Assembly: GCA_016874795.1 (NCBI GenBank)
Contig: VGTG01000013.1
Span: 1-59,699, forward strand
Origin: Deltaproteobacteria bacterium
GTDB lineage: Bacteria > Desulfobacterota > Binatia > UBA12015
Length of the DNA stretch: 59,699 nt
Reading direction: 5' to 3'
Shown here one piece after another: positions 45,643 to 58,722 of this stretch; position 1 is the stretch's first letter; each line of letters opens with the position of its first letter. Both the position numbers and the translations under genes were made by a program. A model generated the notes under the pieces. It had not been told where the DNA came from. It worked only from the letters and a program-made list of their open reading frames with translations, and made no database searches.

Positions 45643-46002
45643 GTGCTGAATCCGTACGTTGCACTCTTGATGAGCTTCGCGCTCTGCGCGCTCGTCGCGA
45701 CGATCATGGTGTGCGCGAGCTGGATCCTCGGCCCGAAGCACCCGACGAAGACGAAGCTCGAGATCTTCGAGACGGGAAATCCGCCGCTCGGATCGCTCCG
45801 CGGCATGCGCTTCCCGGTGAAGTTCTATCTGACCGCCATCCTCTTCATCGTCTTCGACATCGAGGTGGTGTTCATGTACCCGTGGGCCGTGATCTTCCGG
45901 CAGCTCGGCTGGGCGGGACTGGCCGAGATGGCCGTCTTCGTTGCGGTGCTCACGGTGGGGCTGGCGTACGTGTGGCGGGTCGGCGCTCTCGAGTGGGAAT
46001 GA
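45643..46002 (+). CDS. nuoA: NADH-quinone oxidoreductase subunit A
   Basis: A 119-residue three-helix membrane subunit of respiratory complex I. ND3-type motifs are intact: the loop ILGPKHPTKTKLEIFETGNP (usually ESGxxP; here ETGNPP), RFPVKFYLTAILFIVFDIEV and FMYPWAVIFRQLG. It starts with GTG 45643 and opens the operon. In most bacteria nuoB, C and D follow; here nuoH comes next with a 22-base gap, so the peripheral-arm genes are not part of this cluster. The protein contacts NuoH and NuoB/D at the quinone site. Confidence 0.93.
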   Translation: MLNPYVALLMSFALCALVATIMVCASWILGPKHPTKTKLEIFETGNPPLGSLRGMRFPVKFYLTAILFIVFDIEVVFMYPWAVIFRQLGWAGLAEMAVFVAVLTVGLAYVWRVGALEWE

Positions 46003-46024
46003 GCGCCGGGGGACGGGGTCGAAC

Positions 46025-47131
46025 GTGGAGGTGCTGATCTCGCTCGCGAAGGTGATCTTCGCCTTCGTCATCGTTCTCCAGCTCACGCTCGTCCTTCTCT
46101 GGGTCGAGCGGAAGGGCTCGGCGCTGATCCAGGACCGCGTCGGCGCGAACCGCGCGAACCTCTTCGGCGGGCTCCTGCCCTTCAACCTCGGGATCGTGAA
46201 CACGTGGATGGCCGATCCCCTGAAGCTCTTCCACAAGGAGGACATCGTCCCGGCGGACGCCGATCGCTTCCTCCACTGGTTGGCGCCCTGGATCGCGATC
46301 TTCCCGCTCTTCGTGACCTTCACGGTGATCCCGTTCGGCGACGTCCTGATCGCGGGCGGCTACACCATCAACCTGCAGGGCGCGGACCTGAACCTCGGCA
46401 TCCTCTACGTCCTCGCGATGCTGTCGATGGCCGTCTACGGCGTGATCGTCGGCGGCTGGGCCTCGAACTCGCGGTATGCGTTCCTCGGCGGCGTCCGCGG
46501 CTCGGCGCAGATGGTGTCGTACGAGATCGCGATGGGGCTCTCGCTCGTCAGCGTCGTGCTCACCTTCGGGACGCTCGACTTCCAGGAGATCGCGCGCGCG
46601 CAGGGCGATCTCCTCTTCGGGGTCTTCCCGGCGTGGGGCTTCTTCTACCAGCCGCTGGCGCTCCTGATCTTCTTCATCGCCGGGATGGCGGAGTCGAAGC
46701 GCGCTCCCTTCGACCTCCCCGAGGCCGAGTCGGAGCTCGTCGCGGGCTTCTACACGGAATACTCGGGCTCGAAGCAGTCGGTCTTCATGATGGCCGACTT
46801 CGTCGAGGTCGCGATCGTCGCGGGTCTCGTGACGACGCTCTTCTTCGGCGGCTGGCAGGTGCCGTGGCTCTACCGGGACGGCTTCCATTTCCCGGGCGGG
46901 TTCCACGTCTTCGTGCCGTCGCTCCTCGTGACGGTGCTCCAGGTCCTCTCGTTCCTCGTGAAGCTCTTCCTCTTCTGCTGGCTGCAGATCTTGATCCGCT
47001 GGTCGCTGCCGCGCCTTCGTTACGACCAGCTGATGGACCTCGGCTGGAAGCGGCTCCTCCCGCTCTCGCTCGCGAACGTCGCGATCACCGCGGTGTTCGT
47101 GCTGCTCTTCGATGGAAAGACGGTCTGGTGA
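46025..47131 (+). CDS. nuoH: NADH-quinone oxidoreductase subunit H
   Basis: A 368-residue eight-helix subunit (ND1 homologue) forming the quinone channel at the junction of the two arms. Motifs: [100 protein letters not shown] and [20 protein letters not shown]. Start assigned to GTG 46025 (GTG 46031 equally possible). Overlaps nuoJ by four bases. Standard complex I rather than the formate- or methanogen-type version is indicated by the ERKGS and EAESELVAG loops. Confidence 0.94.
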
Positions 47132-47625
47132 CGCTCTTCTGGATCCTCGCCTGCGTGACGATTCCCGCGGCGCTGACCGTCATCCTGCACCGGAACCCGG
47201 TGTACTCGGCGCTGGCACTCGTCTTCACGCTGTTCCAGGTCGCGATCATGTTCGTCGCGCTCGACGCGCATCTGATCGCGTTCCTGCAGATCATCATCTA
47301 CGCGGGCGCGATCGTGGTCTTGATCCTGTTCGCGATCATGCTCTTGAGCCTCGAGCCCGAGGAGCCGGGCGACGGACGAAGCTCGCTCCGCGCCGCCGGC
47401 TGGGGCGCCGCGGCGCTGCTCGGCCTCGAGCTCGTGGCGATCGCCGCGGTCTTCCCGGACACGCCTGCGGCCGAGAAGCCGCTCCCCGAGGGCTACGGCT
47501 CGGTCGCGAAGATCGCCGAGCGGCTCTTCACGACCCATCTTCTGCCCTTCGAGCTGACCAGCGTGCTGCTGCTCGTCGCGGTGGTCGGAGCCGTGGTCAT
47601 GGCGCGGCGACGGACCGGTCCATGA
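47128..47625 (+). CDS. nuoJ: NADH-quinone oxidoreductase subunit J
   Basis: A 165-residue ND6 homologue with five helices. It shows [40 protein letters not shown] and [11 protein letters not shown], the YAGA region being the conserved pi-bulge helix TM3. A soluble loop (residues 75-85, [11 protein letters not shown]) and an extended linker precede the last helix. Start GTG overlaps the nuoH stop (GTGA) and the stop overlaps nuoK (ATGA). nuoI, which normally lies between H and J, is missing from this position. Confidence 0.92.
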
Positions 47626-47918
47626 CCGAGCACTATCTCGTCCTCGCCGCGATCCTCTTCGCGATCGGCGGCCTCGGCGTCCTCATCCGCCGGAACGTCA
47701 TCGTCATTCTGATGTCGGTGGAGCTGATGCTCAACGCGGTCAACGTGACCTTCGTCGCGCTAGCTAGGCAGCACGGTTCGATGGACGGTCAGGTGATCGT
47801 CTTCTTCGTGTTGACCGTCGCCGCCGCCGAGGTCGCGGTCGGGCTCGCGATCATCCTGATGAACTTCGCCCAGCGGAAGACGATCAACGCGGACGAGATC
47901 CGCCTGCTGCGCGGATAG
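47622..47918 (+). CDS. nuoK: NADH-quinone oxidoreductase subunit K
   Basis: A 98-residue ND4L homologue with three helices: [40 protein letters not shown] and [19 protein letters not shown]. The two conserved membrane glutamates, in [11 protein letters not shown] and in [11 protein letters not shown], are present and belong to the proton path of the membrane arm. Start ATG overlaps the nuoJ stop. A 34-base spacer with an AAGAGG site precedes nuoL. Confidence 0.94.
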
Positions 47919-47952
47919 GCGCAGCCGACCCCAGCGAATCGAAGAGGCCGAG

Positions 47953-49887
<1,935 letters not shown>

Positions 49888-49888
49888 G

Positions 49889-51436
49889 ATGGAACTTCCG
49901 ATCCTGAGCTTGATCCTCTTCTCGCCCCTCGTGCTGGGGCTGATCCTGCTCTTCGTCCCGTCGGAGCCGGTCCAGATCCCGCAGCGGACGGCGTTCGTCT
50001 TCTCGCTCGTTCCCTTCTTCTTCTCCCTCTGGATGCTGGCGCGCTTCGATCCCTCGATCGGCGAGCTGCAGCTCACGGAGACGGTCTCGTGGATGCCGAC
50101 CCTCGGCATCACCTACTCGCTCGGCGTCGACGGCTTCTCGATCTGGCTCATCCTCCTGACGACGCTCTTGACGCCCGTCGTGATCCTCGGCTCGTGGACG
50201 GACATCCGGAAGCGCGTGAAGGAGTTCCTCTTCTTCATGCTCGTCCTGGAGTGGGGAATGCTCGGCGCCCTCGTCGCCGTCGACCTCTTCCTCTTCTTCA
50301 TGTTCTGGGAGCTGATGCTCTTCCCGATGGCGTTCGTCCTCGGGATCTGGGGCGGGCCGCGGCGCTACTACGCGACGATCAAGTTCGTGCTCTACACGAT
50401 GGCCGGCAGCGCGCTGATGCTCGTCGCGATGCTGTATCTCGTCCTCGCACACGCGAAGACGGGCACGCTGACGTTCGACATCGTCACGCTCTACGACACG
50501 CCGCTCTCGCGCCTCGAGGAGACGCTCCTCTTCTGGGCCTTCGCGATCGCGTTCTTCATCAAGGTGCCGATGGTGCCGCTGCACACGTGGCTGCCCGACG
50601 CGCACACCGAGGCGCCGACGGGCGGCTCCGTCGACCTCGCGGGCGTCCTCCTGAAGATGGGGACGTACGCGTTCCTCCGCTTCGCGATCCCGCTCTTCCC
50701 GCACGCGGCGGAAGACGCCTTCCCGATCGTCATCGCGATCTCCGTCGTGGGGATCGTCTACGGCGCGATGGTCGCGTACCCGCAGCCGGACATGAAGCGG
50801 CTCGTCGCGTACTCGTCCGTGAGCCACATGGGCTTCGTGATGCTCGGGCTCTACGCCTTCGACGTCACGGGGATCACCGGCAGCGTGCTGCAGATGATCA
50901 ACCACGGGCTGACGACCGGCGGGCTCTTCATCCTGATCGGCTTCATCTACGACCGGACGCACACGCGGCAGATCGCGGACTACGGCGGCGTCTGGACCGT
51001 CGTGCCGATCTTCTCGGTGCTCTTCCTGATCGTGACGCTCGGCTCGATCGGCCTTCCGGGAACGAACGGCTTCGTCGGCGAGTTCATGATCCTCCTCGGA
51101 GCGTTCCGGAACCATCCGTGGGCGGTCGCCGTCGCGACGACGGGCGTCGTGCTCGGCGCGGCCTACATGCTGACGATGTACAAGCACGTCGTCTTCGGCC
51201 CGCTGAAGAACGCCGCGAACGAGACGCTCGCCGACCTGAACCTACGCGAGGTGATCGCGGTCGCCCCGATCGTGCTGCTGATCTTCTGGATCGGCGTGTA
51301 TCCGAAGCCCTTCCTCGCGCGCATCGAGCCGACGGTCGAGGTGCTGCTGTCGCGCCTCGAGCGGGCCGGTGCGACGCTCTACCTCGCGGACCGCTCTCCC
51401 GCGGCGGACGAGCCCGAACGGGTGGCTGCGCGATGA
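49889..51436 (+). CDS. nuoM: NADH-quinone oxidoreductase subunit M
   Basis: A 515-residue ND4 homologue. It has MLGALVAVDLFLFFMFWELM (catalytic Glu in FWELMLFPM), KVPMVPLHTWLPDAHTEAPT, SVDLAGVLLKMGTYAFLRFA, MKRLVAYSSVSHMGFVMLGL and GLPGTNGFVGEFMILLGAFR. The VSWMPTLGITYSLGVDGFSI segment is the usual first loop. ATG starts one base after the nuoL stop, and the end overlaps nuoN by four bases, so the whole A-N set is a single compact transcription unit. Confidence 0.95.
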   Translation: MELPILSLILFSPLVLGLILLFVPSEPVQIPQRTAFVFSLVPFFFSLWMLARFDPSIGELQLTETVSWMPTLGITYSLGVDGFSIWLILLTTLLTPVVILGSWTDIRKRVKEFLFFMLVLEWGMLGALVAVDLFLFFMFWELMLFPMAFVLGIWGGPRRYYATIKFVLYTMAGSALMLVAMLYLVLAHAKTGTLTFDIVTLYDTPLSRLEETLLFWAFAIAFFIKVPMVPLHTWLPDAHTEAPTGGSVDLAGVLLKMGTYAFLRFAIPLFPHAAEDAFPIVIAISVVGIVYGAMVAYPQPDMKRLVAYSSVSHMGFVMLGLYAFDVTGITGSVLQMINHGLTTGGLFILIGFIYDRTHTRQIADYGGVWTVVPIFSVLFLIVTLGSIGLPGTNGFVGEFMILLGAFRNHPWAVAVATTGVVLGAAYMLTMYKHVVFGPLKNAANETLADLNLREVIAVAPIVLLIFWIGVYPKPFLARIEPTVEVLLSRLERAGATLYLADRSPAADEPERVAAR

Positions 51437-52884
51437 TCGAGATCCCCTTCGGCGCCGCGGAGGCGTGGGCGATCGCGCCGTTCACGGTCATCGCGCTCTT
51501 CGCGATGGGCATCCTGCTCTACGAGACGTTCCGCACGGACGACCACGGCCCCGAGCTGACGTTTTGGTTCTCGATCCTCGGCCTTGCCGGCGCCGCGATC
51601 GCCTCGCTCCTCGCGTGGGACAACGGTTCCGTCGCCTTCGGCGGCACCTTCGCGACCGACGGCGTCGCCGTGTTCACGAACCTCATCTGCATCCTCGCCG
51701 CCGGTCTCTCGCTGATGATGGGCGTGCACTACATGGAGCTGATCCGCGTGCGTGCGCGCGAGTTCCAGCCGCTCGTGCTGTTCGCGGTCTCCGGCATGTT
51801 CATCATGGGCGGAGCGCGCGATCTGATCGTCCTCTTTCTCGGGATCGAGGTGATGTCGATCCCCGCCTACGTGCTCGCCGGCATCCACCGGCAGGATCAC
51901 GCCTCGGGCGAGGCGGCGCTCAAGTACTTCCTCCTCGGCGCGTTCGCGACGAGCTTCCTCCTCTACGGCATCGCGCTCGTCTACGGCGCGACGGGAACGA
52001 CGACGTACGCCGGCATCTCGATGGCGCTCTCGACCGCGCCGCACCTGGCGCTCCTCGGCGGCATCGCGCTCTTGATCGTCGCGCTCGGCTTCAAGGTCGG
52101 CGTCGTGCCGTTCCACTTCTGGGCACCGGACGTGTACCAGGGCGCGCCGACCGCGGTGACCGCGCTGATGGCGGTCGGCATCAAGGCGGCGGCGGTCGTC
52201 GGCACGGCTCGTCTCTTCCTCTCCGGCTTCGCCGGGATGCACGTCGAGTGGAGCATCGTCCTCTGGTGGATCTCCGTCGCGACGATGACGCTCGGCAACG
52301 TCGTCGCGATCGTGCAGAGCAACGTGAAGCGGATGCTCGCGTACTCGAGCGTCGCGCACGCTGGCTACCTCATCGCGGCGATCGCTTCGGGCACGCCGCG
52401 CGGCGGCGGCGCGATCCTCTTCTATCTCCTCGCGTACGCGTTCATGAACCTCGGCGCGTTCGCGGTCGTGATCGCGGTCGGTGCGAAGGACGAGCCGAAC
52501 GAGAAGATGTCCGACTTCGCGGGGCTCGCGACGCGTCGGCCGCTCCTCTCGGGAGCGATGGCGCTCTTCCTTCTCTCGCTGATGGGAATCCCGCCGCTCG
52601 TCGGCTTCGTCGGGAAGCTCTACATCATCGAGGCGCTGATCGCGGCCGGGCAGGTCGGTCTCGGCGTCATCGTGATCCTGAACAGCGTCGTGTCCGGGTA
52701 CTATTACCTACGGGTGATCATCGAGATGTTCATGAAGGATGCGACGCGCGAGATCCCCGCTCTCGACCCGCGTCCGTACCTCATGGTCTGCGTCGCGATC
52801 GCGCTCGCCGGGACGATCTTCTTCGGCATCTTCCCGGACCTCGCCCTGGAGGCCGCCCGGGACTCGTTCGCCGCTCTGCGTTAG
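51433..52884 (+). CDS. nuoN: NADH-quinone oxidoreductase subunit N
   Basis: A 483-residue ND2 homologue and the last gene of the operon. It has LIVLFLGIEVMSIPAYVLAG (conserved Glu in IEVMS), GEAALKYFLLGAFATSFLLY, VGVVPFHFWAPDVYQGAPTA, VKRMLAYSSVAHAGYLIAAI, FAGLATRRPLLSGAMALFLL and SLMGIPPLVGFVGKLYIIEA. Start ATG overlaps the nuoM stop. After its stop there are 184 bases without a gene before the secreted protein pair; a TTGACG (52947) is present there but a convincing matching -10 is not. Confidence 0.95.
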   Translation: MIEIPFGAAEAWAIAPFTVIALFAMGILLYETFRTDDHGPELTFWFSILGLAGAAIASLLAWDNGSVAFGGTFATDGVAVFTNLICILAAGLSLMMGVHYMELIRVRAREFQPLVLFAVSGMFIMGGARDLIVLFLGIEVMSIPAYVLAGIHRQDHASGEAALKYFLLGAFATSFLLYGIALVYGATGTTTYAGISMALSTAPHLALLGGIALLIVALGFKVGVVPFHFWAPDVYQGAPTAVTALMAVGIKAAAVVGTARLFLSGFAGMHVEWSIVLWWISVATMTLGNVVAIVQSNVKRMLAYSSVAHAGYLIAAIASGTPRGGGAILFYLLAYAFMNLGAFAVVIAVGAKDEPNEKMSDFAGLATRRPLLSGAMALFLLSLMGIPPLVGFVGKLYIIEALIAAGQVGLGVIVILNSVVSGYYYLRVIIEMFMKDATREIPALDPRPYLMVCVAIALAGTIFFGIFPDLALEAARDSFAALR

Positions 52885-53068: not shown

Positions 53069-55102
53069 GTGGGAAAGCAGTCGATCGCAGCCGTCGCCGG
53101 AATCGCCTTTTGGGCGGCGACCCTGGCGGCTCCTCGAGTCGCCTCGGCAGCACAGCCGCCGTCGGTCGTGAGCTGCGCCAAGCGGGTCACCAATGGCGCC
53201 AAGGGGTTCGTCACCAAGTACTTCGAGTGGATCACGGACTGCGAGATCGACAACCTCGGGAGTGACGCCGGCGAGAAGCTCGACTGTCGTGCCGAGGCCG
53301 CCGGATCGAACACAATCGAGGGGCTCCTCGACAAGTTCTTCCGCGAGGTCGACGAATGCGCGAGCGACGCCTTCCGGGCGATCTGCCCGTTCGAGGCGAA
53401 GAATGCGGAGGAGCTGAAGGGTAAGCTCGGGGCGCCCGGCGGGATCGTCGACCAGCTCCTCGCCCTGAGCGACGACATCTACGTCACCGATTACGGGGCG
53501 GGATGCGAGCGACCGCCCGGCGAGGCCACGCGCGACGCCGAGGAGTGCGGTAAGCAGATCGCGCGGGTCGGTGCGGACTATACCGAGGAGCTCGTCAAAT
53601 GCGTATTCAAGTGCGAGCTCGGTAGGCTCCGGGAGAGCAGCGAATCGGTGGCCTGCCTCGACCCGTCGAGCGGTGCACCTGTTCGCGAGAAGGTCGTCGA
53701 GTGCTTCGAGGGCGAATCGGGGGACTTCCACGACGACACCGACAACAAGTGCAAGCTGAATGCGCACGTGCTCGGGCTCGGTTGCCCGATGGGCTTCGAG
53801 ACGGTCCCGGATGTCCTCGACGCGATCGACGAGCGCATCGTGGCGATCGTCGCCGAGGTGGACGAGTCGATCTTCCGCTCGCCGTGCAAGTCGAGCCTGG
53901 AAGACGCCGGAGAGGACGTCGCAATTCCGGCCAACGTGACGCTCGAGCCGAGCTTCACCACGAAGCAGGTTGCCTGCGGCCAGATACTGAACGCGAGCTT
54001 CTTCGGCAGCGACACGACCGTCCGCTTCGACTCGAACCTCGACTGCACGCCGATCGGCACCGCCACGGACGGCGTCGTGATCTCGAAGTCCGGCGTGACC
54101 GTCAGCGGCCGTGGCGAGTATCGCATCACCGGTCCGCAATCGAAGAAGAACCGAACCGGCGCCGGGATTCGGCTCGCGTCGGGCGTGACCGGCGTGCGGA
54201 TCCAGGGTTTCTCCGCGATCGAACGCTTCGCGGACGGAATCGGGGACGCCGGGAACAACACGGGCCTGGTCATCGACAACGTCACCGTCCGCCGGAACGA
54301 GGCGGCGGGAATCCGGTTGACGTCGCCGGGTGCGGCGATCGAGGAGGTCAAAGCGGATCGCAACACCATCGGCTTCGACCTCTCGGGCGACAACACCACG
54401 CTCACCGAATCCCGAGCGCTCCGCTCCACTGCCGGCGTCGGCATCGGCGTGCGGCTCGACGGCGTCGACACCGACGGTAACGGCCGTATCGTCTGGGTGA
54501 GAGAAAGCGCGTCCGAGGAGAACTTGATCGGGCTGCAGCTCAACGGCGGCCCGCACCGGATCGAGCACAACTCGGTGCGTGAGAATCTCGGAACCGGCAT
54601 CCACGTCGCGTCGATTGGCTCCAAGGTCGACTCCAACTCGATCAAGCTGAACCTGACCGATGGGGTCTGGGTAACCGGCTCGAACAACGACGTCTCGGCA
54701 AACAGCTCGGACGAGAACGTCGAGGACGGCTACGTGGTCGAGGGCTCGAACAATCTCCTCGACACCAATCGGTCTGGCACGTTGACGGACAACGGCAACG
54801 GCGGCGTCGGCTATCGGATCGGTGGAATGGGGAACCGCTTCCGCTCGAACAAAGCAGAGGCGAACCTCGGGGCCGGATTCCTGGTCGGGGCTCCGACGGC
54901 GGTGTTCACATCGAACAATTCGAACCGAAATCACGCCCAGGGTTATCTGTTCACGTCCGGGGGCAGCACGCTCGATACGAACAAAGCGGAGTTCAACACC
55001 GGGTTCGAGTTCGTCATCGCTCCGGGGAATACCGACGCACAAAGCAACACTGCGAACGGCGCCGCATTCAGCTTTGGCGCTGGCGGCGGCAGCTTCGAGT
55101 GA
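53069..55102 (+). CDS. Secreted Cys-rich protein with C-terminal right-handed parallel beta-helix
   Basis: A 677-residue exported protein (signal VGKQSIAAVAGIAFWAATLA, cleavage near ASA-AQ). Residues about 30-330 are helical and carry some 16 cysteines (VVSCAKRV, DECASDAFRAICPF, VKCVFKCELG, LGCPMGFE, SPCKSS), probably disulfide-linked, while the remaining half has none. The C-terminal half consists of about 22-24-residue beta-helix turns of the GI-L---N-V--N-A-NN-xGI type (TGLVIDNVTVRRNEAAGIRL, PHRIEHNSVRENLGTGIHVA), like NosD/pectate-lyase-type repeats. GTG 53069 is chosen for its AGGAGA site 7 bases upstream. The next gene overlaps by four bases. Possible glycan-binding or surface role; no catalytic site recognised. 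Confidence 0.75.
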   Translation: MGKQSIAAVAGIAFWAATLAAPRVASAAQPPSVVSCAKRVTNGAKGFVTKYFEWITDCEIDNLGSDAGEKLDCRAEAAGSNTIEGLLDKFFREVDECASDAFRAICPFEAKNAEELKGKLGAPGGIVDQLLALSDDIYVTDYGAGCERPPGEATRDAEECGKQIARVGADYTEELVKCVFKCELGRLRESSESVACLDPSSGAPVREKVVECFEGESGDFHDDTDNKCKLNAHVLGLGCPMGFETVPDVLDAIDERIVAIVAEVDESIFRSPCKSSLEDAGEDVAIPANVTLEPSFTTKQVACGQILNASFFGSDTTVRFDSNLDCTPIGTATDGVVISKSGVTVSGRGEYRITGPQSKKNRTGAGIRLASGVTGVRIQGFSAIERFADGIGDAGNNTGLVIDNVTVRRNEAAGIRLTSPGAAIEEVKADRNTIGFDLSGDNTTLTESRALRSTAGVGIGVRLDGVDTDGNGRIVWVRESASEENLIGLQLNGGPHRIEHNSVRENLGTGIHVASIGSKVDSNSIKLNLTDGVWVTGSNNDVSANSSDENVEDGYVVEGSNNLLDTNRSGTLTDNGNGGVGYRIGGMGNRFRSNKAEANLGAGFLVGAPTAVFTSNNSNRNHAQGYLFTSGGSTLDTNKAEFNTGFEFVIAPGNTDAQSNTANGAAFSFGAGGGSFE

Positions 55103-58100
55103 GGGCGCTGCCCCCCCCTCGACCAGCGACGGAGGCTACCAACCGCTTGAAGCCGGCGACCCACACGATCCGGAATCGAATCGCCTCGCTGGCGGCGCTC
55201 CTCCTCGCCGCGTCGGCAGTTCTTCCCGCGGCTGCGCGAGCCGCGGACGGCCCCGGTCTCGAGGAGATCGTCATCTCGCCGGCCACGCTCACGCTCGCTC
55301 CGGGCGAGAGCGGTCAGCTCACGGCGGTCGGACACTACGAGGACGACACGACGCGGCCCCTGACGAACGTCGTCTGGCAGAGCCGGAACGAGGACGTCGC
55401 GACCGTCGATCCGCAGACGGGTCGTGTGACCGCGCACGCGAGCGGCGAGGCGGAGATCAAGGCCGAGGACGAGGACAGCGGGAAGGAGGCGAGAGTCCGC
55501 GGGAAAATCGTCGTCGCGGAGATACAAGACCTCTCCGTCGTGCCCTCGCAGGCGACGATCGAGACGGGCAAGACGCTCCAGCTGAGGGCGCTCGCCACCT
55601 TGTCCGACGGCCGGACCGGCTTCGACGTGACGAAGTTCGTCACCTGGACCTCGAAGAAGAAGTCCGTCGCGACGGTCAGCGACGCCGCTCCGACGCAGGG
55701 CCTCGTGACAGCGGTCGCAGTCGGGCAGGGCAACATCCGCGCGAAGGACCCGGAGTCCGGCGAAGAGGCGGAGGGCACGATGACCGTCGTCCCCGCGCCG
55801 GGCGGGGGAGGCGGAGAGGACGACGACGAGGGCGATCCGGACGAGGTCGAGGAGATCGAGCTCCGCCCGCACGACGTCAAGCTCCGTCCCGGCGGCAGCG
55901 CCGCGCTCCGTGCGTTCGCCATCATGGCGGACGGCACCGAGCGCGACGTGACCTCCGAGGTCGACTTCTCTTCGAGCGACGCGCAGGTCGCGACGGTCGC
56001 CGCCGGCGGGCTCGTGACCGCGGGCGAGGCAGGCCGCGCGAAGATCGAAGCGAGCCACGAGGCGGGCGGCGAGAGCAGCGACTCGCGTGCTCAGATCTGG
56101 GTCGGCGAGGTCGAGAGCATCGATCTCTCGCCGGCGAACCCGACGCTCGACATCGGCGAGATCGTCGAGATGAGCGCGCTCGCGACGTACGACAACGGGC
56201 TCAGCGCCGACATCACGCAGCAAGCGGAATGGTCTTCCGAGAAGACCCGCGTCGCGACGGTCAGCGACACCGCCGGCTCGAAGGGCTTCGTCACGGGCGT
56301 GACGCGTGGCGACGCGACGATCGTCGCGCGCGACCCCGCTTCCGGCCAGGCGTCGAAGGGCTCGTCCGGCCGCGTCGTCGTGCTCGATCCGACCGATCCC
56401 GATCCGGACGAAGGCGAGGGCGACCTCGCCGGGCTGCGCGACATCGTGCTCGACCCGGCCGCGGTCAGTCTCCTGCCGGGTGAAACGGCCGTCGTGCACG
56501 CGACCGGCCTCTTCGCCGACGGCTCGACGCGCGACCTGACCGACCTCGTCGACTTCCGCTCGCGGCGCTCTCGCACGGCGGACGTCGACGAAACCGGCGT
56601 CGTCACCGGCAAGCGCGAGGGCGATTCGGAGATCGAGGCGAAGGAGCCGTCGACGGGCGTCCGTTCGCGCGTGCCCGCGCGCGTCCACGTCGCGCGGATG
56701 CTGAGCCTCGCGATCCTCCCGGCGGAGCGGATTCTCGCGCCGGGCGGCAGCATGCAGCTCCAGGCGCGCGCGAACTACGACAACGGCGTGACGGGTCGCG
56801 ACGTGACGAACGAGGTGCGCTGGGAGTCGTTCCGCACCTCCGTCGCCACGGTGGGCAACACGGATCTCGACCGGGGCCGCCTCGTCGCGGTCGGGAACGG
56901 CGAGACCGAGGTCGCCGCCTATCACAAGGATTCACGCGTCCGCTCGCATCGCGAAGAGGGCAAGGTGATCGTCCGGAGCGCCGGCCCGACGCCCACTCCG
57001 GGCGTCGCGGTTCCGGTCGGCCTCGTGGTCACGCCGGCGATGCTGAGCCTCCAGGACGGCGAGACGCAGCAGCTCCAGGTCGAGCTCCAGTACTCGGACG
57101 GCTCGAAGGATCCGCTCCTGGAGAGCCTCGAGTTCCGCTCGAGCAACCGACGCGTCGCGCGCGTCACGACCTCGGGCCTCGTGGTGGCCGAGGGCGGCGG
57201 CGCGGCGAGCATCGAGGTCGAGTACGATCCGCTCGGCTTCTCGAAGCACGTGTCCGTCGTCGTGCGGAACATCACGAGCCTCAAGATCGATCCCGCGACG
57301 ACGACGCTTCGCATCGGGCGCACGGCTCGGTTGAAGGCGCTCGCGTCCTTCAGCGACGGGACGACGAACGTCGACGTGACGAACGACGTCTCGTGGCGCT
57401 CCGACAATCCGCTCGTGGCGACCCTTCCCGACAGCGGGACGGTGCAGGGCGCGGCGCTCGGCACGGCGCGGATCGAGGTGCTCGATCCGATCACTCGCGT
57501 GCGCTCGGACGCTTCGACCGGCAACGTGTCGGTCGTCGCCGGGATCGAGCGTGTATTCTTGACGCCGAGCCGGCTCGCGCTGCCCGTCGGCGGCGAGAAG
57601 CAGTACAAGGCGTTCGGCGCCTTCCCCGGCGGCGCCACCGCGGACATCACGGACAGCGTCGACTGGTTCATCTCGGCCGGAAATCCGCCGGTCGCGTCGA
57701 TCAGCCCGACGGGGCGCGTGAAGGGTCTCCGTCTCGGCGACGCGACGATCTCGGCGCGCGATCGCGAGAGCGGGATCACCTCGACGGCGAGCGGCGACGA
57801 CCGTGTCGCTTCGATCGTCGGAGCGCTCCTCGCGCTCAAGGTCTCGACGACCGATGACATCGACGCGACACCGTCCGCCGTGGTCCTGAGCGCGGGCGAG
57901 ACGAAGAGCCTGAAGGGTCTGGCTCTCTTCGAGCAGCGGACGGACGGCTTCAACCTCGGCAGCGCGCTCGATTGGCACTCGAGCAACGCGGTGGCGGTCT
58001 CCGTCAACGCGTCCGGGCTCGTGACCTGCAACGGCGTCGGCGTGTCGACGATCTCGGTCACCGACCCGACGACGGGCATCACGTCGACGAACACGCTGGG

Positions 58101-58722
58101 CAACCTCTCCGTGACGTGCTCGGGACGCGTGGTCGGCCTACGCACGCAGCCGACGTTCGCGGACCTCAACTACCTGGCGACGCGGCAGGTGCGCGCGTTC
58201 CGCCGGCTCGAGGACGGCAGCGAGATCGAGGTGACGCGGAAGGTCCAGTGGACCTCGAGCAGCCCGAGCATCGTCAGCATCGTCGAGACGGGCGACCAGG
58301 GTGGCCTCGCGACCGCGCTCGGCGACGGGCAGGCGACTCTGGTCGCGTACGACGCCGCGTTCGACGTCAGCTCCGAGGACTCCGGCGGGACGCTCGCGGT
58401 CCTGCGCACGCGCAAGACAAGGACGAAGCTCGAGCTCTTCCCGCAGAGCGACGCCGTCGGCTTCAAGGGCAAGGTCGGCGAGCTCTACGGCTTCCAGGCG
58501 CGCGCGACCTACGCGAGCGGCGCGACGCAGGGCGTGAACCTGCTGCTCAACTGGAGCTCGTCGAACGCGACGATCGTCCAGATGGGAGACGGCTCGGCCG
58601 AGTTCAAGGTGAACCAGGGTCGCCTGCTGAAGGCGGGCACCGTCACGATCACCGGACGGTACCCGGCCGACGCAGGCTCCCCCGAGGTCAGCGCCTCGAC
58701 GTCGTTCGAGGTCACGCCCTAG
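55099..58722 (+). CDS. Large secreted protein with 12 tandem Ig-like (Big_2-type) domains
   Basis: A 1207-residue protein: a signal segment near residues 25-50 (RIASLAALLLAASAVLPAAA), then twelve domains of about 85-100 residues. Each follows the Big_2 pattern: L-I-L-P--L-PGE-LT-A---DGT--DVT--V-W-S----VATV---GLVTG--GGATI-A-D. A shorter and a longer version roughly alternate, suggesting growth by duplication of a pair. Linkers are acidic (GGGEDDDEGDPDEVEE after domain 2). No anchor or catalytic domain is visible. GTG 55099 overlaps the upstream stop (GTGA). Its own stop codon TAG is the junction of the 186-bp element, so the C-terminus could once have been longer. Adhesin or surface-stalk function is inference. 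Confidence 0.82.
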   Translation: MRALPPPRPATEATNRLKPATHTIRNRIASLAALLLAASAVLPAAARAADGPGLEEIVISPATLTLAPGESGQLTAVGHYEDDTTRPLTNVVWQSRNEDVATVDPQTGRVTAHASGEAEIKAEDEDSGKEARVRGKIVVAEIQDLSVVPSQATIETGKTLQLRALATLSDGRTGFDVTKFVTWTSKKKSVATVSDAAPTQGLVTAVAVGQGNIRAKDPESGEEAEGTMTVVPAPGGGGGEDDDEGDPDEVEEIELRPHDVKLRPGGSAALRAFAIMADGTERDVTSEVDFSSSDAQVATVAAGGLVTAGEAGRAKIEASHEAGGESSDSRAQIWVGEVESIDLSPANPTLDIGEIVEMSALATYDNGLSADITQQAEWSSEKTRVATVSDTAGSKGFVTGVTRGDATIVARDPASGQASKGSSGRVVVLDPTDPDPDEGEGDLAGLRDIVLDPAAVSLLPGETAVVHATGLFADGSTRDLTDLVDFRSRRSRTADVDETGVVTGKREGDSEIEAKEPSTGVRSRVPARVHVARMLSLAILPAERILAPGGSMQLQARANYDNGVTGRDVTNEVRWESFRTSVATVGNTDLDRGRLVAVGNGETEVAAYHKDSRVRSHREEGKVIVRSAGPTPTPGVAVPVGLVVTPAMLSLQDGETQQLQVELQYSDGSKDPLLESLEFRSSNRRVARVTTSGLVVAEGGGAASIEVEYDPLGFSKHVSVVVRNITSLKIDPATTTLRIGRTARLKALASFSDGTTNVDVTNDVSWRSDNPLVATLPDSGTVQGAALGTARIEVLDPITRVRSDASTGNVSVVAGIERVFLTPSRLALPVGGEKQYKAFGAFPGGATADITDSVDWFISAGNPPVASISPTGRVKGLRLGDATISARDRESGITSTASGDDRVASIVGALLALKVSTTDDIDATPSAVVLSAGETKSLKGLALFEQRTDGFNLGSALDWHSSNAVAVSVNASGLVTCNGVGVSTISVTDPTTGITSTNTLGNLSVTCSGRVVGLRTQPTFADLNYLATRQVRAFRRLEDGSEIEVTRKVQWTSSSPSIVSIVETGDQGGLATALGDGQATLVAYDAAFDVSSEDSGGTLAVLRTRKTRTKLELFPQSDAVGFKGKVGELYGFQARATYASGATQGVNLLLNWSSSNATIVQMGDGSAEFKVNQGRLLKAGTVTITGRYPADAGSPEVSASTSFEVTP

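Follow-up and report, generated by a model that had tools for sequence, protein, structure and literature searches.

Which electron-input module serves a complex I membrane arm whose operon contains no gene of the peripheral arm? The question is raised by a stretch of 59,699 nucleotides from a Deltaproteobacteria bacterium (assembly GCA_016874795.1, contig VGTG01000013.1, positions 1 to 59,699; hereafter the window), in which seven nuo genes are tightly packed on the forward strand at positions 45,643–52,884 in the order nuoA-H-J-K-L-M-N. The genes nuoB, C, D, E, F, G and I are absent from the window: a tblastn search at an E-value of 1e-5 with overlapping matches filtered, for which the genome's own subunits of both of its nuo sets were the queries, matched only A, H, J, K, L, M and N, and there is no nuoI between nuoH and nuoJ. 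The initial annotation of the locus had described this gene content and order, the short gaps and overlaps, and the lack of peripheral genes, including at the A-H and H-J junctions, and all of these features are borne out here. It left two alternatives, a peripheral arm encoded elsewhere as a clean split by module, or a membrane arm that works with a different electron-input module. We conclude, with a probability of about 0.87, that the window operon encodes the membrane arm of a 14-subunit NADH:quinone oxidoreductase, that an operon nuoB-G-I-C-D-E-F of the same genome (nuoBGICDEF) encodes its peripheral arm, and that the divided layout arose by arm replacement.

The relatives of the source organism are probably the class Binatia of the phylum Candidatus Binatota. 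The nearest named matches of the window NuoH include Candidatus Binatota records (L075, L077) and Deltaproteobacteria metagenome-assembled genomes (MAGs). The accessible part of a 2021 paper on the Binatota reports the full set of complex I subunits for every genome and does not mention gene order or duplicates (PMC8262859). Families, genomes, contigs, and records or loci are designated below by the letters f, G, C and L; the window belongs to family f1.

Peripheral-arm genes of the source genome

The source genome (G000; 6.27 Mb, 360 contigs, 96.7% complete) holds two nuoD, two nuoH, one nuoG and three proteins of the family PF01058, according to a genome search. The genes nuoB and nuoG are located on contig C146, and nuoI, C, D, E and F on contig C148. 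The ends of the two contigs share an overlap of 157 bp with one mismatch that lies inside nuoI, and the gene, split by both contig ends, was read as two overlapping parts. Most likely one operon, nuoB-G-I-C-D-E-F, encodes the peripheral arm and includes no membrane genes, which matches its arrangement on single contigs of relatives. The expected Pfam domains are present in each of the seven peripheral proteins. Together, the window operon and nuoBGICDEF provide all 14 subunits of NADH:quinone oxidoreductase, divided cleanly by module, as the first alternative of the initial annotation proposed; nuoBGICDEF is also the nuoD and nuoB set lacking membrane genes of its own that the annotation suggested looking for. 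A single nuo cluster is common for complex I but not required, and the genes are here in two operons on different contigs.

The search for further nuo copies recovered an 11-gene operon, nuoABCDHIJKLMN, on C28, which lacks E, F and G and is a different complex from the one encoded by the window operon and nuoBGICDEF. The NuoL of the C28-type operon (L005:15102 to L006:5566) has 729 residues, compared with 644 in the window. The presence of a second operon could mean that the C28 set is the main complex I and the window set an accessory paralogue. This explanation is very improbable and was rejected, because the C28 set, without E, F and G, has no NADH entry module of its own. Moreover, the only nuoG that a search of the genome recovered belongs to the nuoBGICDEF operon (nuoE and nuoF were not counted genome-wide), and genomes G007 (f1) and G103 (f14) have the window-type set with no second nuoH or nuoD returned. 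The annotation had named a complete operon of 13–14 genes elsewhere as evidence for an accessory paralogue; no second 14-gene nuo operon was found in the G000 assembly, where the two nuoD and two nuoH are accounted for by an 11-gene set beside the divided one.

A different input module (hydrogenase, F420 or ferredoxin), or a function of the window arm as a stand-alone antiporter, could be suggested by the lack of peripheral genes in the window and by other genes of the genome. One of the PF01058 matches, on C158, lies next to the large subunit of a NiFe hydrogenase, and C82 encodes additional PF00361 proteins that resemble an Mrp-type antiporter. However, a matching membrane-less nuoBGICDEF operon exists and co-occurs with the membrane operon in 13 of 14 family members, and the C158 cluster carries its own small and large hydrogenase subunits. 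We therefore rejected this explanation as extremely improbable. NuoE, NuoF and NuoG are present with their usual families, and the second alternative of the annotation is thus unsupported. The window set was also considered as an Mrp-type antiporter, an identity that does not apply since nuoA and nuoH are present.

Recurrence and pairing of the two operons

Twelve of the 14 f1 genomes have the complete operon nuoA-H-J-K-L-M-N (with nuoL in two pieces in G003), and the membrane layout is therefore not an assembly accident. A contig end cuts the membrane operon of G009 after nuoL, and in G012, for which only nuoA and nuoH were sought, both were found, on two contigs. The nuoBGICDEF operon is present in 13 of the 14 genomes; no nuoD match reaching 1e-100 was obtained from G012, which is 63% complete. 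The order B-G-I-C-D-E-F was found in all 24 genomes read (13 of f1, three of f6, four of f14 and four of f9), which were chosen for reading because their B, D and F matches suggested this order. In two f9 genomes (L073 and L242), the operon contains an unexplained insert of about 1.8 kb between nuoG and nuoI.

Both modules are joined in some relatives. In family f2 (G014, G027) and in record L078, nuoA, nuoC to nuoH, and nuoJ onward form one cluster (A-C-D-E-F-G-H-J-K-L-M-N in f2), with nuoB and nuoI outside. The proteins of these clusters match the window and nuoBGICDEF set better than the C28 set, with the exception of nuoL of L078 (518 versus 536 bits). Claims of absence are confined here to genomes with a complete list of matches. 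In two such genomes, G007 (f1) and G103 (f14), searches returned just one each of nuoA, H, B, D and F, and thus no other partner for either operon was found. NuoD, NuoF and NuoL align among the chains of solved complex I structures. The recurrence of both operons in the family, the relatives with one cluster, and the single copies in G007 and G103 indicate that the two operons belong to one enzyme. From this conservation and from the relatives with both arms in one cluster, we infer that their products assemble into one NADH-oxidising, quinone-reducing and proton-pumping complex.

Two peripheral arms and one membrane arm in the class

Gene orders of the relatives reveal two peripheral arms. 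One is nuoBGICDEF; the other, which we call old, is dispersed, with C, D and usually E beside nuoA and nuoH, and B-F-G and I elsewhere. In those genomes of families f4, f5, f7, f8, f10, f11 and f13 that were read, the main cluster is A-C-D-E-H-J-K-L-M-N, B-F-G is elsewhere where it was fetched, and nuoI is outside the main cluster; the F-G locus of G029 showed no B. Families f1, f6 and f14 have A-H-J-K-L-M-N plus B-G-I-C-D-E-F. Both situations occur in f9: G026 has A-C-D, E-H-J-K-L-M-N and B-F-G apart, and G021 has B-G, I-C-D-E-F and H-J-K-L-M-N. The A-H junction of the window operon corresponds to the site of C-D-E in relatives with the old arm.

The two arms of the enzyme have different histories. 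Carriers of nuoBGICDEF are united in all seven peripheral gene trees (B, G, I, C, D, E and F; local support 0.76 to 1.0) and in none of the seven membrane gene trees (A, H, J, K, L, M and N). G021 and G026, both of f9, are joined in all six testable membrane gene trees. Each of the per-gene trees contains 29 to 39 sequences. Because of cross-hits or cut contigs, L and M of G031, L, M and N of L085, M and N of G009, and N of G034 were dropped from them; G034 and the C28-type copies were left out of the tree counts, and low-scoring L, M and N matches were removed from a later tree set by a score limit. The RpoB tree groups f14 (one genome) with f13 (support 0.96), f1 with f6 (0.96), and two f9 genomes together (1.0), and the later of two membrane trees agrees with it in outline, joining f1 and f6. 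The IQ-TREE trees of the arms are the best found in a time-limited search and carry no bootstrap values.

In likelihood tests, the grouping of G021 with G026 was rejected for the peripheral arm by 670 log-likelihood units, and the unity of nuoBGICDEF carriers was rejected for the membrane arm by 655 units. These tests used fast searches and 2000 replicates, too few for the approximately unbiased (AU) test according to IQ-TREE, so that the p-values are rough but the likelihood gaps are large; the genomes with both arms were left out, as were three more taxa for the membrane arm and four more for the peripheral arm. Sequence identities agree with the trees. G021 and G026 are 61–81% identical in six membrane subunits and 34–66% in six peripheral subunits, and the peripheral subunits of G021 are 66–81% identical to the nuoBGICDEF copy of G086. 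Across the pairs compared, the alternative peripheral arms share about 33–66% identity per subunit. The membrane arm is thus a single lineage, and the peripheral arms are two anciently diverged versions within the class. The input arm did change, but between two complex I arms, which the initial annotation could not see.

The distribution of both arms was surveyed in 148 genomes, in which the NuoD scores form two groups; outside the loci that were read, the arm type was assigned from the NuoD score alone. The nuoBGICDEF type (59–100% identity to the NuoD of the source genome, at least 539 bits) is present in 42 of the 148 genomes, namely in 13 of 14 of f1, 4 of 6 of f6, 7 of 7 of f14 and 18 of 41 of f9. 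The other type alone (51–58% identity, at most 515 bits; 45% in one f12 genome) was found in 87 of the 129 genomes with a NuoD match, and 19 of the 148 gave no match at 1e-100. Judged by nuoD, most genomes carry one peripheral arm. Some genera of f9 have the old nuoD alone, some the nuoBGICDEF type alone, and some both. Window-type NuoH matched 120 of the 148 genomes at 1e-90, with one copy in 119 of them and two in G094. In f9, G064 returned one nuoH, with D, B and F of the nuoBGICDEF type only, and the matches listed for G083 include one nuoH, with D, B and F of the old type only. The window-type membrane arm therefore occurs with either peripheral arm alone. The second nuoH of G094 (f8; L254, G094:C73:26000-34040) belongs to an f1-like A-H-J stretch (75, 76 and 69% to the window copies) near a contig end, in addition to a full old-type cluster, and represents contamination or a second membrane arm.

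Origin of the divided layout

Arm replacement is the best explanation of the split layout. One membrane-arm lineage goes with two anciently diverged peripheral arms in the class. Most families sampled use the old arm, whose C, D and, in most cases, E genes lie within the A to H operon. The window lineage uses the nuoBGICDEF arm and lacks the old genes, whose loss would have left nuoA directly before nuoH. The two arms could have originated either by duplication in the ancestor of the class (ancient paralogy) or by early import.

The distances within the two arms provide information about their age. Between families, the median ratio of peripheral to membrane distance is 0.72 for nuoBGICDEF (89 pairs) and 0.77 for the old arm (83 pairs); within families, the values are 0.79 and 0.67. 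The ratios of peripheral to RpoB distance are 1.78 (18 pairs) and 1.69 (44 pairs), respectively, and the separation of the two peripheral arms exceeds that of the families (1.11). All ratios were computed from the time-limited IQ-TREE trees. Because nuoBGICDEF distances scale like those of the old arm, and the arms are farther apart than the families, old coexistence of the arms followed by differential loss is favoured by the sequence data, with which an early transfer would also be compatible.

Alternatively, nuoBGICDEF may be a cassette of seven genes that recent horizontal transfer carried into several families, where it displaced the resident arm. Its carriers are scattered over families that are parted by the RpoB and membrane trees (f14 beside f13, and part of f9), the cassette is one operon, and f9 genera differ in having the old nuoD alone, the new one alone, or both. 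Furthermore, nuoE and nuoF are fused in the nuoBGICDEF arm of four of four f14 and four of four f9 genomes (f9 loci L073, L242, L246 and L250), and the fusion, which joins the f14 and f9 cassettes, is absent from six f1 and three f6 genomes. A nuoC-nuoD fusion was seen in f14 only (L207, L257, L259, L261), and the fusions explain why NuoE and NuoC measured long in f14 and f9. The length of 8 residues obtained for NuoC of the old arm of G079, by contrast, comes from faulty extraction. However, the cassette's distance ratios are similar to the old-arm ratios, by which measure it appears to date back as far as the families themselves, and monophyly of f1 and f6 inside the cassette clade is not rejected (p-AU 0.22). 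We therefore consider a recent spread unlikely.

Several observations weigh against arm replacement, or against old coexistence as its course. The p-AU value neither shows nor rejects vertical descent inside the nuoBGICDEF clade, and the nuoE-nuoF fusion common to f14 and f9 could point to transfer between these families. Families f1 and f6 were separated in the first membrane tree, which contained fewer genomes of f9 and f14. Because nuoE of the old arm is part of the membrane operon, the line between the two histories follows gene function and does not coincide exactly with the loci. For the second, f1-like A-H-J of G094, no matching nuoBGICDEF-type nuoD was found at 1e-100. In the fetched stretches of G031 (f11, L160) and G108 (L260), nuoL and nuoM were not found and only nuoN follows nuoK. 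Finally, the peripheral operon of G000 has to be joined from two contigs, and most of the relatives are draft assemblies.

Genomes with both peripheral arms

Six f9 genomes (G061, G077, G079, G084, G085 and G086) contain both types of nuoD. Window-type nuoH is present as one copy in five of them and as a fragment in G084. The loci of G086, G079 and G061 were read and comprise nuoBGICDEF, A-C-D, E-H-J-K-L-M-N and B-F-G; each of the three also has a second nuoI like that of genomes with the old arm (40–45%). Both peripheral arms thus look complete, as far as gene content tells, beside one window-type membrane arm. A C28-type set that includes a nuoH is additionally present in G086 and G079. G061 is without such a set, and a single nuoH is among its 11 matches, all of which are listed.

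The double-arm genomes are assemblies of 20–260 contigs, and might be binning mixtures of two strains or species. However, their listed contamination is 1–5%, all four loci of G086 are on contigs of 118–1074 kb, and the double-arm state agrees over six genomes in three genera. In addition, each arm of the three genomes that were read groups with f9 relatives. Mixing is thus an improbable explanation of these genomes. We tentatively suggest, while leaning slightly against it, that one membrane arm could be shared by two complete ancient peripheral arms to give two forms of the enzyme, and that the window lineage could descend from such a two-arm state, of which it kept one arm. One of the arms may be silent in the double-arm genomes, or used in another condition.

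Conserved residues and electron path

The iron-sulfur (Fe/S) ligands are invariant in the six nuoBGICDEF sets and in the old sets that were aligned: four cysteines in NuoB, four in NuoE, the four of the N3 motif in NuoF, and the cysteine sets of NuoG. NuoD aligns to a solved 49-kDa chain and contains the motifs HPATHG and YTDRLNY, whose histidine and tyrosine residues we take to form the quinone site. These motifs are kept in both arms with the exception of G026, in whose NuoD a pattern search did not find HPxxHG. The NuoG proteins of the aligned f6 and f9 nuoBGICDEF arms (L072, L242, L246, L250) have two extra cysteines (own positions 168 and 203), neither of which occurs in the window genome or in the old arms; G103 of f14 has the first only.

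In complex I, electrons pass from NADH to flavin mononucleotide in NuoF, along the Fe/S chain of NuoE, F, G and I to cluster N2 in NuoB, and to quinone at the site formed by NuoB, D and H. They would take the same route in the enzyme described here, with pumping via the subunits encoded in the window. The enzyme is likely an ordinary NADH:quinone oxidoreductase, to judge from its predicted proteins.

Organization of the window operon and its surroundings

All seven window genes are on the forward strand and belong to the expected Pfam families. The operon starts with nuoA (chain 3 of the membrane arm; 45,643–46,002; PF00507, 5.5e-36), which has a GTG start and is separated by 22 bp from nuoH (46,025–47,131; PF00146, 1.5e-103), also with a GTG start, the membrane-arm gene whose product docks the peripheral arm. 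Overlaps of 4 bp connect nuoH to nuoJ (47,128–47,625; PF00499, 4.4e-38) and nuoJ to nuoK (47,622–47,918; PF00420, 1.8e-28). After a gap of 34 bp follow the genes of the antiporter-like pump subunits: nuoL (47,953–49,887; PF00361, 9.9e-79, and PF00662, 1.2e-21), then, 1 bp further, nuoM (49,889–51,436; PF00361, 2.8e-76), and nuoN (51,433–52,884; PF00361, 1.5e-73), which overlaps nuoM by 4 bp. Most of the length of the window NuoL aligns with NuoL chains of solved structures. In the MAG record L085, an extra L-M-N set lies directly 5' of a full nuoA-N cluster.

Upstream of the operon, a phosphotransferase gene (PF01636) and a nucleotidyl transferase gene (PF00483) are divergently oriented. On the downstream side lie an open frame without a Pfam match and the gene of a Big_2 protein of 1207 residues (55,099–58,722) that contains eight Big_2 immunoglobulin-like stretches.

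Comparison with known complex I systems

The enzyme resembles the canonical 14-subunit NDH-1 of E. coli, Thermus and Paracoccus in having all 14 subunits, of the usual families and with the cofactor ligands kept. It differs in gene arrangement: canonical NDH-1 has one A-N cluster, whereas here there are two module-pure operons, the peripheral one in the order B-G-I-C-D-E-F. The NDH-1 variants of cyanobacteria have a common core and differ in their distal membrane subunits. Alternative modules are likewise placed on a shared remainder in the Binatia, but here the whole peripheral arm varies on the membrane arm.

The order A-H-J-K-L-M-N without peripheral genes also occurs in Oligoflexales (L114), in Bdellovibrio sp. 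ZAP7 (L134), and in records L107, L152 and L095. Unlike nuoBGICDEF, the peripheral genes of L114 and L134 are arranged as C-D-E-F-G-I with B alone, and the Oligoflexales and Bdellovibrio records are outside the Binatia clade in the trees of both arms. The split in L114 and L134 therefore probably arose independently of that in the Binatia. The part of PMC12361115 that was accessible reports split nuo clusters in other bacteria, and nuo gene order need not matter, to judge from the title of a paper that is cited there.

According to the accessible part of PMC4859585, Rhodobacter sphaeroides has two complex I isozymes, and like the double-arm f9 genomes it thus contains two diverged complex I gene sets. 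The isozymes each have their own operon, whereas two peripheral arms face one matching membrane arm in f9. A complex I-like enzyme of 11 subunits without the NADH module is described in the accessible part of PMC11238625. Its gene content (B, C, D, I and the membrane genes, without E, F and G) equals that of the C28 operon. The window set is not of this type, as it is without B, C, D and I and its partner operon has E, F and G.

A search of open-library literature, outside which most subscription journals fall, found no report of arm replacement or of this layout. Complex I is usually treated as a unit with co-evolving arms. In the case described here, each arm has a history of its own, common to its seven genes. 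Such an exchange of a whole arm is a natural experiment on the inter-arm contacts needed for coupling, and it also bears on models that have the two arms assemble separately. In the genomes with both peripheral arms, the use of one pump by two input modules could be put to the test.

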